Shown here piece by piece: positions 20,034 to 25,479 of a DNA stretch of 59,960 nt (within the stretch, counting starts at the first letter, position 1; each line of letters opens with the position of its first letter). The notes under the pieces were generated by a model that was not told the origin of the DNA, searched no databases, and was given only the letters and a program-made list of their open reading frames with translations. A program made the translations under genes and the position numbers. Source of the DNA: Syntrophorhabdaceae bacterium (GTDB taxonomy: Bacteria; Desulfobacterota; Syntrophorhabdia; Syntrophorhabdales; Syntrophorhabdaceae); NCBI GenBank assembly GCA_035541755.1, contig DATKMQ010000033.1:1-59960 (forward strand), read 5' to 3'.

Positions 20034-20744
20034 ATGCTCAAAGAAGTGAGGAAGAAACGGGCCTACGAGGACATCGTGACCCAGATCAGGACGCTCATCG
20101 AAAAGGGAAGGCTCAAGCATGGCGACCAGCTTCCCAACGAAAAGGAGCTTTCGGAGACCTTCAAGGTATCCCGCTCCACGGTGCGCGAAGCAATCCTCTC
20201 ACTGGAGACCCAGGACCTCGTAGAGAGACGCCAGGGTGACGGCACTTACGTCATGGCCACGAGCGAAGAGGCCATCGTTAAGCCCCTGGCTCAATCCATC
20301 TTCCACGAAAAAGATGACATCATCGATATCTTCACGTTACGCAAAATTCTTGAACCGGAAATCGCCAAACTTGCTGCGGAACATTCCACGCAAAAGGCGA
20401 TCCGCGATCTGGAGGATATCGTAAACAAGCAGGACAAAAGCCTCGAAGGGGGGAAGAACCCCGTGAAGACGGATTCCAACTTTCATTATGCCCTGGCCCA
20501 AATGTCTAAAAACAAGGTCCTGGAACGCCTGCTCATGGCCCTGGTAAGGATTCTTCGCAGGACCCGTGAGGAATACCTTCAGAGCGAAGAGAGGAAACGA
20601 AAATCGCTCGCCGGGCACAGAGCTATCCTTGCGGCCATCAAAACCCGCAATGGGACAGCCGCGAAACAGGCCATGCGACGTCATTTGGAGGAGGTGGAGG
20701 ATGCCGTATTCAAGCAGAGAGAAGGAGGTGAGACGGAAGTCTGA
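20034..20744 (+). CDS. FadR-subfamily GntR transcriptional regulator
   Basis: A 236-residue regulator. Residues about 5-75 are a GntR winged helix (LPNEKELSETFKVSRSTVREAILSLETQDLVERRQGDGTYV). Residues about 95-225 form an FCD ligand-binding domain with the usual metal-binding histidines in NFHYALA, GHRAIL and RRHLEEVE. FCD regulators bind carboxylates such as lactate, pyruvate, glycolate or fatty acyl-CoA. It lies 102 bases before the oxidoreductase operon on the same strand and probably controls it in response to the substrate; this is inferred from position and family. A strong AAGGAGGG site precedes the start. Confidence 0.88.
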   Translation: MLKEVRKKRAYEDIVTQIRTLIEKGRLKHGDQLPNEKELSETFKVSRSTVREAILSLETQDLVERRQGDGTYVMATSEEAIVKPLAQSIFHEKDDIIDIFTLRKILEPEIAKLAAEHSTQKAIRDLEDIVNKQDKSLEGGKNPVKTDSNFHYALAQMSKNKVLERLLMALVRILRRTREEYLQSEERKRKSLAGHRAILAAIKTRNGTAAKQAMRRHLEEVEDAVFKQREGGETEV

Positions 20745-20745
20745 T

Positions 20746-20779
20746 ACGCGTTGAATCTGCCTCGCAGATTCGAGCGCGT
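20746..20779. promoter_or_regulatory. Nested hairpin between regulator and oxidoreductase genes
   Basis: GAATCTGC and GCAGATTC pair perfectly around a 3-base loop (20753-20771). They are flanked by a second pair, ACGCG and CGCGT (20746-20750 and 20775-20779). No T run follows on either strand, so it is not a standard terminator. It may be an mRNA processing site or a protein-binding palindrome. Confidence 0.45.
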
Positions 20780-20794
20780 TAATGTTCCGGTTTA

Positions 20795-20810
20795 TTTGGG
20801 ATCAACCAAA
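20795..20810. promoter_or_regulatory. Palindrome, possible operator of the GntR regulator
   Basis: TTTGG and CCAAA flank GATCAA, giving a 16-base inverted repeat; a related GATCAAACC lies about 15 bases further on. FadR-family regulators usually bind short palindromes with TGG/CCA arms, so this is a reasonable operator for the regulator encoded just upstream. Confidence 0.4.
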
Positions 20811-20846
20811 GGCTGATCAAACCTTAATCGAAGGAGGTAGAGGTTT

Positions 20847-23070: not shown

Positions 23071-23099
23071 AAATATGATCCACAGGGAGGTGTCAAATT

Positions 23100-24086
23100 A
23101 TGCAAGCCTTTGATTATAAAAAACAGATCTTAGAACCGATTAAATCTCTGCGAGGCGCGCCCAGGGAAGAGATGTATGTGCCGGGGCACAGGACGTGCGC
23201 CGGATGCGGACCGGCCCTCAATTATCGTCTCGTGGCAAAAGCAGCCGGCCAGCACACAATCTTCATCGGGCCCACGGGCTGCATGTACGTGGCCAACTCC
23301 AGCTATCTTTGCACGCCTTATGCGGTATCGTGGATCCACTCACAGATCACGAACGGCGGCGCCGTCGCGTCAGGCATCGAGGCAGCCTTCAAGACGCTGG
23401 CCCGCAAAAAGAAGTATGATGGTCCGTTTCCCAATGTGATTGTCATGGCGGGTGACGGCGGTTCGGTCGACATCGGACTCCAGGCAATGTCCGCTTTGAT
23501 GTATCGCGGTCATGACGTGCTCTTTATCTGCTACGACAACGAGTCCTATGCCAATACCGGTATTCAGACCTCACCTACCACACCGTATGGCGCAAATACT
23601 ACCTTTACCCCGCCTGGCAAGGAGATTCCTGAGGGCAAGACGCTCTTCCCCAAGGACCCGCCCCAACTCGTGATCGGAGGACACCCGCTCGTGAAATACG
23701 TTGCCACCACCTGCGTCTCTTATCCCCTTGACCTCATGAACAAAGTGCGTAAGGCGCTAAACGTTGACGGGCCGACCTTTCTCCATATGCTCGCGCCATG
23801 CCCCAAAGGGTGGAGGTTCGACGAGAAGCTGACTCTCGAGATGGGGCGGCTCGCCGTTCAGACAGGCATGTGGACGCTCTACGAATGGGAGAACGGGACA
23901 TACAAATATTCCCATATCCCGAAGGCCTACAAACCCGTTGGCGAGTACATGAAATACCAGGGCCGTTTCACGCACCTCAAGCCGGAACATATAGCGAGGA
24001 TGCAGGCCTTTGTGGACGAGAAGATACAGAGGATCAAGGCGGTCGCCGTGGAAGCTCCCATTCCCACACCTAAGCAGACGGCCTAA
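23100..24086 (+). CDS. 2-oxoacid (probably oxalate) oxidoreductase, beta subunit
   Basis: A 328-residue POR beta chain that binds thiamine diphosphate and the proximal 4Fe-4S cluster. Cluster ligands are Cys33, Cys36, Cys61 and Cys234. The diphosphate/Mg motif runs from GDGG at 118-121 to [16 protein letters not shown] at about 143-158. Together with alpha, gamma and delta it would oxidise and decarboxylate a 2-oxoacid and reduce ferredoxin; for oxalate the products are two CO2 and two electrons, without CoA. The length is close to the Moorella enzyme (about 314). A 14-base-pair hairpin follows the gene. Confidence 0.88.
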
Positions 24087-24118
24087 TTGGCGCCGCGACA
24101 GCTTGGTGGGAATGTTCG

Positions 24119-24159
24119 GTTGCGATACCCCAACCCGTGATGTGCTGGGGTATCGCAAC
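24119..24159. other. Long perfect hairpin between beta subunit and transporter genes
   Basis: GTTGCGATACCCCA and TGGGGTATCGCAAC form a perfect 14-base-pair stem with a 13-base loop. No T run follows, so it is unlikely to end all transcription. It may stabilise the upstream oxidoreductase mRNA, or partly reduce readthrough into the transporter gene 64 bases on. Confidence 0.6.
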
Positions 24160-24222
24160 AGCTCTTACAGGAAAAGGGAATCGAATGTGAAAAGCTTACA
24201 CTAAAGATCACGGAGGAAGAAA

Positions 24223-25479
24223 ATGGAAAAAGGGGACGCTGTGAAAACGGGTTTCATGAACAACGCCTGGGTAATGCTCATAGCCGGGGTTGTGGGTATG
24301 GTAATGATATCGAGTCTTCAGTATGCGTGGGGTCTTTTTGTTCCTGACATTCTCAAATCTAATCCAACATTTTCCAAGGTGGGCATTCAAACGGCCTTTG
24401 CTACATTTGTCGCGTGCATGACCTTTGCGGGGCCTCTGAGTGGCTACCTGATAGACAAATTCGGCACAAGAATATTCTTCTCGGTCGCCGCCGTACTGGT
24501 GGCGGTGGGCTGGGGGGGCATCGGCGCCCAGGACAAAGTACTGCCCATCTGTATCTTTTACGGGTTTTCAGGTATCGGGGCAAGCTTTGTGTACACGGGC
24601 GGCATCGCGGCATCCTTGAAATGGTTTCCTAAAAAGAGGGGGTCAGCTTCCGGTATCATGGCCTGCGGTTTCGGCTCCGGCGCTGCCCTTTTCGGATGGC
24701 TTATTACTATCCTCGTGGCGAGGTACGGCTACAAGACAGCTTTCCTCTATACCGGCATCGGGTTTGCGGTGGTGTTGCTCGCCGTAGCGCAAGTCCTCAA
24801 ATTTCCCGAGGTCCCCTCTCAAGCAAAGGCGGCTGATCCAGGCACTCCCAAGGCAACCCAGGCCAAGAGTTGCAGCCCCGGGCAAATGTTCATGACCGGC
24901 CAGTTCTATCTGATCTATATCTCGTTTGTACTCATGGCGATCGGTTATATGTTCTTGAGCCCCAACATAAAGCTCATGGCGAACGACTACAAGGTCCCCT
25001 CGAATATTTTCATCATCACGTTCACGGCATTCACTGCCGCAAACGGACTCGGGAGGATCGTCTGGGGCATAATATCGGATAAGACCGGCAGGGAGAACGC
25101 GATGTTTATCGACTTTGTGCTGTGCGGAATCCTCTACATCCTTTTGCCTTTTTGTTCACACAATCCGTACGGCTTCATGATCGTGGTAACTGCGGCATTT
25201 TTCTGCACGGGTCCGATGTTCGCTTTCTTTCCACCCCTTACGGCCGACCGTTACGGCGAGAAGTATTTGTCCACAAACTACGGCGTTATGTATACGGCAA
25301 AAGGGGTCGGCGGTCTCATAGGACCGACCTTCATCACTGCGCTCGGTTTGGCTTATGCCAAATCTCATGGTTTCCAAATCGGCTGGGAAGTAGCATGTTC
25401 AGTTATCGGGGTGGCCTCTATCCTTTCAGGCATCGGCTCTATTATTCTGAAGAGAATATCGAAACCCGTGGACGCTTAA
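24223..25479 (+). CDS. OFA-family major facilitator, probable oxalate:formate antiporter
   Basis: A 418-residue, 12-segment MFS protein, the same length as OxlT of Oxalobacter formigenes. Between segments 2 and 3 is GYLIDKFGTR; the central loop (about 195-220) is hydrophilic. Two charged residues lie inside membrane helices: Arg278 (NGLGRIVWG) and Lys360 (MYTAKGVGG), close in number and context to the oxalate-binding Arg272 and Lys355 of OxlT. OFA proteins also include formate/lactate/pyruvate carriers, so the substrate is inferred, strengthened by the adjacent oxidoreductase. It would import oxalate and export formate or another monoanion. The strong GGAGG site precedes the start. Confidence 0.85.
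   Translation: MEKGDAVKTGFMNNAWVMLIAGVVGMVMISSLQYAWGLFVPDILKSNPTFSKVGIQTAFATFVACMTFAGPLSGYLIDKFGTRIFFSVAAVLVAVGWGGIGAQDKVLPICIFYGFSGIGASFVYTGGIAASLKWFPKKRGSASGIMACGFGSGAALFGWLITILVARYGYKTAFLYTGIGFAVVLLAVAQVLKFPEVPSQAKAADPGTPKATQAKSCSPGQMFMTGQFYLIYISFVLMAIGYMFLSPNIKLMANDYKVPSNIFIITFTAFTAANGLGRIVWGIISDKTGRENAMFIDFVLCGILYILLPFCSHNPYGFMIVVTAAFFCTGPMFAFFPPLTADRYGEKYLSTNYGVMYTAKGVGGLIGPTFITALGLAYAKSHGFQIGWEVACSVIGVASILSGIGSIILKRISKPVDA

Follow-up and report, generated by a model that had tools for sequence, protein, structure and literature searches.

A CDC48-type ATPase gene heads a probable oxalate oxidation operon in a Syntrophorhabdaceae bacterium

Soils and plant-fed anaerobic settings are rich in oxalate, and the usual oxalate surveys target frc/oxc and OXDD. 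To our knowledge, oxalate oxidoreductase (OOR) has so far been regarded as belonging to a few acetogens. A stretch of 59,960 nt from a Syntrophorhabdaceae bacterium (assembly GCA_035541755.1, contig DATKMQ010000033.1, positions 1-59,960, forward strand), hereafter referred to as the window, raises the question of whether such an enzyme is encoded there and which of the neighbouring genes belong to it. Here, we describe seven genes of the window, which encode a CDC48-type ATPase, a FadR-type regulator, the gamma, delta, alpha and beta subunits of an oxidoreductase and an OFA-family transporter, and which lie on a single strand with short gaps. It is highly probable that they form a single operon for the uptake and anaerobic oxidation of oxalate, including an ATPase dedicated to OOR. 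A first-pass annotation of this DNA had listed the regulator, the four subunits and the transporter, and they were found where it placed them, in one direction and with the subunit sizes it gave (397, 328 and 212+109 residues). It had the set start at the regulator gene (20034); the operon begins earlier, at 17904, with the ATPase gene, which had been missed. The Pfam matches of the window proteins comprise GntR/FCD, the POR gamma domain, a two-[4Fe-4S] ferredoxin, POR_N with PFOR_II, the thiamine-diphosphate C domain and MFS. The matches to GntR and FCD confirm that a FadR-type regulator precedes the oxidoreductase set, as had been proposed.

All sequence tests that distinguish the families assign the gamma-delta-alpha-beta set to OOR. 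Among solved structures, the best match of alpha, beta and gamma is the Moorella OOR, with 483, 513 and 205 bits, respectively, against 195, 256 and 42 bits for pyruvate:ferredoxin oxidoreductase (PFOR). Alpha reaches 551.8 bits with the NCBIfam model OxalOxredalpha (cut-off 500) and gamma reaches 238.8 bits with OxalOxreddelta (cut-off 230). Delta, which carries two CxxCxxCxxxCP motifs, matches OxalOxreddelta at 3.7e-29, covering model positions 227-315. In an IQ-TREE phylogeny of alpha, the window protein, Moorella 5c4i and 48 relatives (50 OOR rows) are found behind a 100/100 branch, and the pyruvate-type and further 2-oxoacid enzymes are placed on its opposite side. The tree, the alpha cut-off and the best solved relatives bear out the OOR assignment of the first-pass annotation, and the alignment and tree both place alpha with Moorella OOR, apart from the pyruvate-type enzymes.

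The residues of the active site are consistent with this assignment. The relatives used for comparison were obtained by scanning GTDB genomes, which gave 392 candidates encoding a relative, and the counts below refer to 80 loci among the matches listed. Two search patterns were used in this survey, one of which, IRPYT[AG]IM, contains R31. Alpha has the motif FPIRP, in which residue 31 is Arg in the window and in Moorella and Thr in PFOR 9bt4. A study of a Sulfolobus 2-oxoacid:ferredoxin oxidoreductase (OFOR) describes Arg31 as the oxalate-binding residue of the YPIRP motif, reports that Asp116 takes part in the bait-and-switch mechanism and names Arg109 as the sole residue conserved with other OFORs (PMC5020499). 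Arg109, Asp112, Asp116 and Phe117 of the window alpha align column for column with those of Moorella 5c4i_A. The loop that contains three of these residues reads DPPGDFG in the window and SAPINIW in PFOR, and DPPGDF is found in Moorella and in 80/80 relatives. Furthermore, none of the 80 relatives deviates at D112, P113, G115, D116, F117 or Q211, and PFOR has none of these residues. Arg31, Arg109 and Asp112 had all been proposed as oxalate-specific. Arg31 and Asp112 do align with Moorella, but Arg109 is not diagnostic for oxalate because it is common to pyruvate enzymes.

Compared with the OOR of Moorella thermoacetica (5c4i/5exd/5exe), alpha is 54% and beta 72% identical, and the pocket residues R31, R109, D112, D116 and F117 are kept. 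The two enzymes also have in common the domain content and the ligands of three [4Fe-4S] clusters; beta keeps its four cluster Cys and the equivalent of Asn143 (N152). However, gamma and delta are separate genes in the window, and Phe28 of alpha replaces Tyr28. Some points weigh against the identification. Beta scores 567.7 bits with OxalOxredbeta, 22 below the cut-off of 590, the next family being at 330 bits. The invariance of R31 across the 80 relatives is partly built in through the search pattern. Residue 28 is Phe, where both Moorella and PFOR have Tyr, although Tyr28 is not distinguishing, as PFOR carries it too. In the literature found, no enzyme activity is reported for OOR members outside Moorella.

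The survey shows that this kind of locus is far from confined to a few organisms. At least 80 OOR loci were listed, spanning Thermodesulfobacteriota, Nitrospirota, Bacillota, Acidobacteriota, Actinomycetota, Methylomirabilota and others, so that the rarity assumed in the first-pass annotation is not borne out. Nor does the locus represent a new version of the pathway, as had been suggested. Separate short gamma and delta genes are the commonest layout among the loci listed (44/80), the fused Moorella form being found in 9/80; delta has about 520-920 amino acids in 23/80 and is out of view or cut in 4/80. OFA genes are found near OOR in about 27 of the 80 loci, and FadR-type neighbours recur as well, a homologue being present at the matching position in most ferredoxin-type loci. 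Other transporters seen at OOR loci are a tripartite tricarboxylate system (TctC, TctB and TctA confirmed in L032) and a CLC channel (L101), while in Moorella stamsii a lactate-permease-type gene follows beta where the window has an OFA-type transporter. Within the order, OOR was found in 3/46 genomes, and in a sample of the phylum it was above the cut-off in 9/395 genomes. OOR is thus an accessory trait that is patchily spread over a wide range. Spread of OOR by plasmids was considered and rejected, as no plasmid matched at 60% identity or more. In an acidobacterial or actinobacterial locus (L058:4103-5932) and about 22 further loci of these groups, delta has about 610 amino acids or more and joins 4Fe-4S, Pyr_redox_2 FAD/NAD and ferredoxin domains, a domain content that suggests coupling of OOR to NAD(P) in lineages that are partly aerobic.

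The first gene of the operon encodes an ATPase whose best solved relative is the archaeal VAT (5g4f, 628.6 bits). It has CDC48_N and two AAA modules, with both Walker A and B motifs intact and the pore-loop aromatics KFYG and KWLG, all of which it has in common with the CDC48/p97/VAT unfoldases. It differs from them in being bacterial and encoded in an operon with a metabolic enzyme, and it belongs to a clade apart from VAT and from other bacterial CDC48s. Neighbour listing shows a gene of about 700-780 amino acids adjoining OOR in most loci, and BLAST places a homologue of the ATPase next to OOR in 40/52 loci for which 4.9 kb or more of upstream sequence is available. Such ATPases are found at the OOR loci of Moorella stamsii, Clostridium, syntrophomonads, Acidobacteriota, Nitrospirota, Methylomirabilota and a Synergistaceae metagenome-assembled genome (MAG). 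The adjacency is kept in at least six phyla despite changes of gene order; in two betaproteobacterial MAGs (L165, L166) the ATPase lies downstream of OOR, past a second OFOR. Betaproteobacterial MAGs at L048:8217-11499 and L045 likewise have a second OFOR that separates the OOR genes from the CDC48-like ATPase; its gamma and delta are fused, its alpha and beta are fused and its motif is FPITP.

The same tie is seen at the level of genomes and of phylogeny. A CDC48-like protein, counted at 1e-120, was present in 41 of the 395 phylum genomes, and all 10 OOR-positive genomes were among these 41 (Fisher p = 5e-11). The two genes lie within about 5 kb on one contig in nine of the 10; in the other, G237, they are not nearby and alpha belongs to a side group. 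Conversely, an OFOR gene was present in 0/27 CDC48 neighbourhoods taken from outside OOR loci. In a tree rooted on archaeal VAT, 54/54 OOR-linked ATPases, together with that of G393, which lies at a contig edge, form one clade with a Shimodaira-Hasegawa-like approximate likelihood ratio of 100, and the non-OOR CDC48s fall outside it. The split recurs in a larger tree without a root, in which G393 is the sole exception. The distances between ATPases correlate with those between alphas (r = 0.79, compared with 0.78 for alpha and beta; Mantel 0/5000). We conclude that the ATPase is an OOR-dedicated member of the CDC48 family. A literature search, in which the primary Moorella OOR papers were not covered, found no published link between the ATPase and OOR or between CDC48 and oxalate. 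Two non-OOR CDC48-like ATPases read in detail lie in gas-vesicle clusters (L149, L140). GvpL/F was confirmed by Pfam in L149; the gas-vesicle assignment of L140 and the Hsp20-like and GvpN-like calls are our reading of the sequence.

The sequence upstream of the ATPase gene suggests that the ATPase, the regulator, the enzyme and the transporter are probably one regulated unit, because a promoter-like site and palindromes stand there. Promoter-like sites in the scan as a whole were no more numerous than in shuffles; the site before the ATPase gene is backed by its position and by a similar TTGAC element in relatives. L027 and L084 carry the palindrome that directly follows, ATCATC-N-GATGAT, without a mismatch at the corresponding position; L028 deviates from it by one base and L031 by two. 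When 160-bp windows were drawn at random from these loci, 0 to 2.7% of them matched equally well. Across the whole window, the palindrome shows no enrichment. In other lineages, palindromes of the TGGTCNGACCA type, which are typical of FCD-GntR regulators, were found upstream of the ATPase gene in 9/45 relatives, with 11/38 sites falling within 2% of the bases. This last result has less force, as both the TGGTCNGACCA pattern and the test were set after some of the sites had been viewed. A shared palindrome that could serve as an operator between the FadR-type gene and gamma was not found.

What the ATPase does for OOR is suggested by this linkage. It is most likely an ATP-driven unfoldase or remodelling factor that would act on the enzyme. 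Tentatively, and with slightly less than even confidence, we propose that a bacterial branch of the CDC48/p97 type serves as a dedicated motor for the assembly, reactivation or repair of OOR and is inherited with it across phyla. Two observations tell against this proposal. The correlation of the ATPase and alpha distances ignores species relatedness. Moreover, the ATPase is absent from six tested OOR genomes with FAD-fused delta, four of Acidobacteriota (L059, L060, L073, L076) and two of Actinomycetota (L092, L102), and it is therefore not universally required.

The ATPase could instead be a passenger, a general chaperone that moves with the cassette because the two share transfer and regulation, and that does not act on OOR. 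The OOR operons look horizontally spread, given their presence in few genomes of the order, so that hitch-hiking is possible, and the genomes without the ATPase fit this explanation, as does a decayed OOR locus that retains it. We nevertheless consider it unlikely. Against it stand the adjacency retained in at least six phyla while gene order changes, the clade separate from other CDC48s and the placement of the promoter-like and likely operator sites before the ATPase gene. Furthermore, an OOR-type ATPase without an intact OOR was seen only in G393, at the contig edge, and in G263, where the locus is decayed. In this decayed locus (L153, G263:C1:900000-918000), alpha is a 306-residue open reading frame and that of the ATPase is kept; beta was not found in the single-contig genome.

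It is less probable still that the client of the ATPase is the regulator or the transporter rather than OOR. The ATPase gene adjoins the regulator gene in many loci, but it is also kept where no FadR-type gene is seen beside it (e.g. L086, L103, L106), and it is kept beside unrelated transporter families (OFA, tripartite tricarboxylate, lactate permease and CLC).

The last gene of the operon encodes a member of the OFA family, which is probably a transporter for oxalate, judging by its alignment with OxlT of Oxalobacter formigenes (8hpj/8hpk). At the thirteen OxlT positions described in PMC10070484, it keeps Q34, Y35, Y124, A147, N268, R272 and K355. Its R278 and K360 align with R272 and K355 of OxlT, as had been noted from the sequence, and the lactate transporter SfMCT is without the Lys of this pair. 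Other positions have changed: W352 is replaced by Tyr, Y150 and Y328 by Phe, Q63 by Val and Q66 by Met. A role in oxalate transport is opposed by the replacement of W324 by Thr, which together with the change at W352 leaves the aromatic cage of OxlT incomplete, and by the score with the oxalate/formate antiporter model TIGR04259, 285.2 bits against a cut-off of 335. In addition, the classical oxalate:formate exchange does not follow, because the product of the partner enzyme is CO2 and not formate.

These departures bear on the substrate. An enzyme of the OOR clade might act mainly on another small 2-oxoacid, such as glyoxylate or a dicarboxylate, with the transporter carrying that acid, and both Phe28 and the missing Trp324 equivalent depart from the characterised proteins. 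We regard this as very improbable, since no charged residue of the oxalate pocket varies, nor does the D112-F117 loop. Phe28 recurs in 12/80 relatives of several lineages, some of which adjoin OFA genes with Trp324, and carriers of the di- or tricarboxylate type or resembling OxlT are found repeatedly among the neighbours. With an ordinary ferredoxin oxidoreductase for pyruvate or aromatic 2-oxoacids, the enzyme has in common the subunit architecture and the generic Pfam matches POR_N and PFOR_II. Such a specificity can nevertheless be dismissed for practical purposes, given the 100/100 alpha tree, Arg in place of the PFOR Thr31 and DPPGDFG in place of SAPINIW. Moreover, the genome encodes its pyruvate-type alphas separately (e.g. 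C145), and these group with the pyruvate oxidoreductases of relatives. A second group of 2-oxoacid oxidoreductase alphas, which have YPIRP but DDPGAF for DPPGDF and fall outside the OOR clade, was observed at L059:966-2216 and in L156 (G237:C188); in L059 the genes of this DDPGAF-type oxidoreductase stand just upstream of a true set of OOR genes.

With oxalate as the substrate, the operon would work as follows. The OFA transporter would import oxalate, and the thiamine-diphosphate enzyme, as judged from its Moorella homologue and the conserved site, would split it into two CO2. Two low-potential electrons would pass through the three [4Fe-4S] clusters to ferredoxin, as in the Moorella enzyme. 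The regulator is probably a repressor that occupies the predicted operator palindrome at the ATPase promoter and releases the operon once oxalate or a product appears. The ATPase may serve in the assembly, reactivation or clearance of the oxygen-sensitive Fe-S/thiamine-diphosphate complex. The source genome (3.85 Mb, 96% complete) has five POR_N matches besides OOR alpha, five [FeFe]-hydrogenase matches and the carbon monoxide dehydrogenase/acetyl-CoA synthase (CODH/ACS) pathway. Given this gene content, the electrons would probably exit through the [FeFe]-hydrogenases or feed CODH/ACS. Sulfate as an electron acceptor and Rnf were considered and rejected, dsrA and rnfC above their cut-offs not being found in the genome. 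An oxalyl-CoA route in the genome was likewise rejected, no oxalyl-CoA decarboxylase (OXC) above the cut-off being found.

Table 1 Features of the predicted oxalate operon in the window.
Feature	Position	Strand	Remarks
Promoter-like site TTGACT-18-TATAAT	17825..17854	+	Before the ATPase gene; 11/12 consensus matches
Likely operator ATCATCTGATGTT, palindrome ATCATC-N-GATGAT	17855..17867	.	Directly after the -10 element
CDC48/VCP-like AAA+ ATPase, 704 aa, operon gene 1	17904..20018	+	CDC48_N 2.2e-18; two AAA domains
FadR-type (GntR/FCD) transcriptional regulator	20034..20744	+	Pfam GntR 5.1e-23, FCD 7e-30
OOR gamma, 212 aa	20847..21485	+	Corresponds to N-terminal half of Moorella OOR delta; 5c4i_B 7e-60
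OOR delta, 109 aa, two-[4Fe-4S] ferredoxin	21532..21861	+	Corresponds to C-terminal part of Moorella OOR delta
OOR alpha, 397 aa	21877..23070	+	54% identity to 5c4i_A; Arg31, Arg109, Asp112, Asp116, Phe117
OOR beta, 328 aa, thiamine diphosphate and one [4Fe-4S]	23100..24086	+	5c4i_C, 216/302 identical
OFA-family MFS transporter, 418 aa, likely oxalate importer	24223..25479	+	OxlT 8hpj 2.2e-46

Two further genes flank the operon. Directly after it, at 25646-26968, lies thiC (643 bits against a cut-off of 410). Thiamine diphosphate is the cofactor of OOR, and ThiC was considered as an operon partner; a ThiC-like open reading frame was not found in related loci, and the neighbourhood is attributed to chance. 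No TPP (thiamine pyrophosphate) riboswitch or other Rfam element was found at the gathering threshold around the operon or thiC. On the other side, a large open reading frame on the minus strand (14965-17445) runs divergently to the operon and, by its sequence, would encode a CheB/CheR-type sensor protein.

Overall, the survey makes ferredoxin-linked oxalate oxidation a widespread trait that is not counted by surveys based on frc/oxc and OXDD, and in Acidobacteriota and Actinomycetota the oxidation is possibly NAD(P)-linked. For the first time, the tie to a CDC48-type ATPase, which the OOR locus of Moorella stamsii likewise carries, gives a concrete indication that OOR may depend on ATP-driven maintenance. 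In turn, the tie to OOR gives the bacterial CDC48 proteins a defined, testable client.

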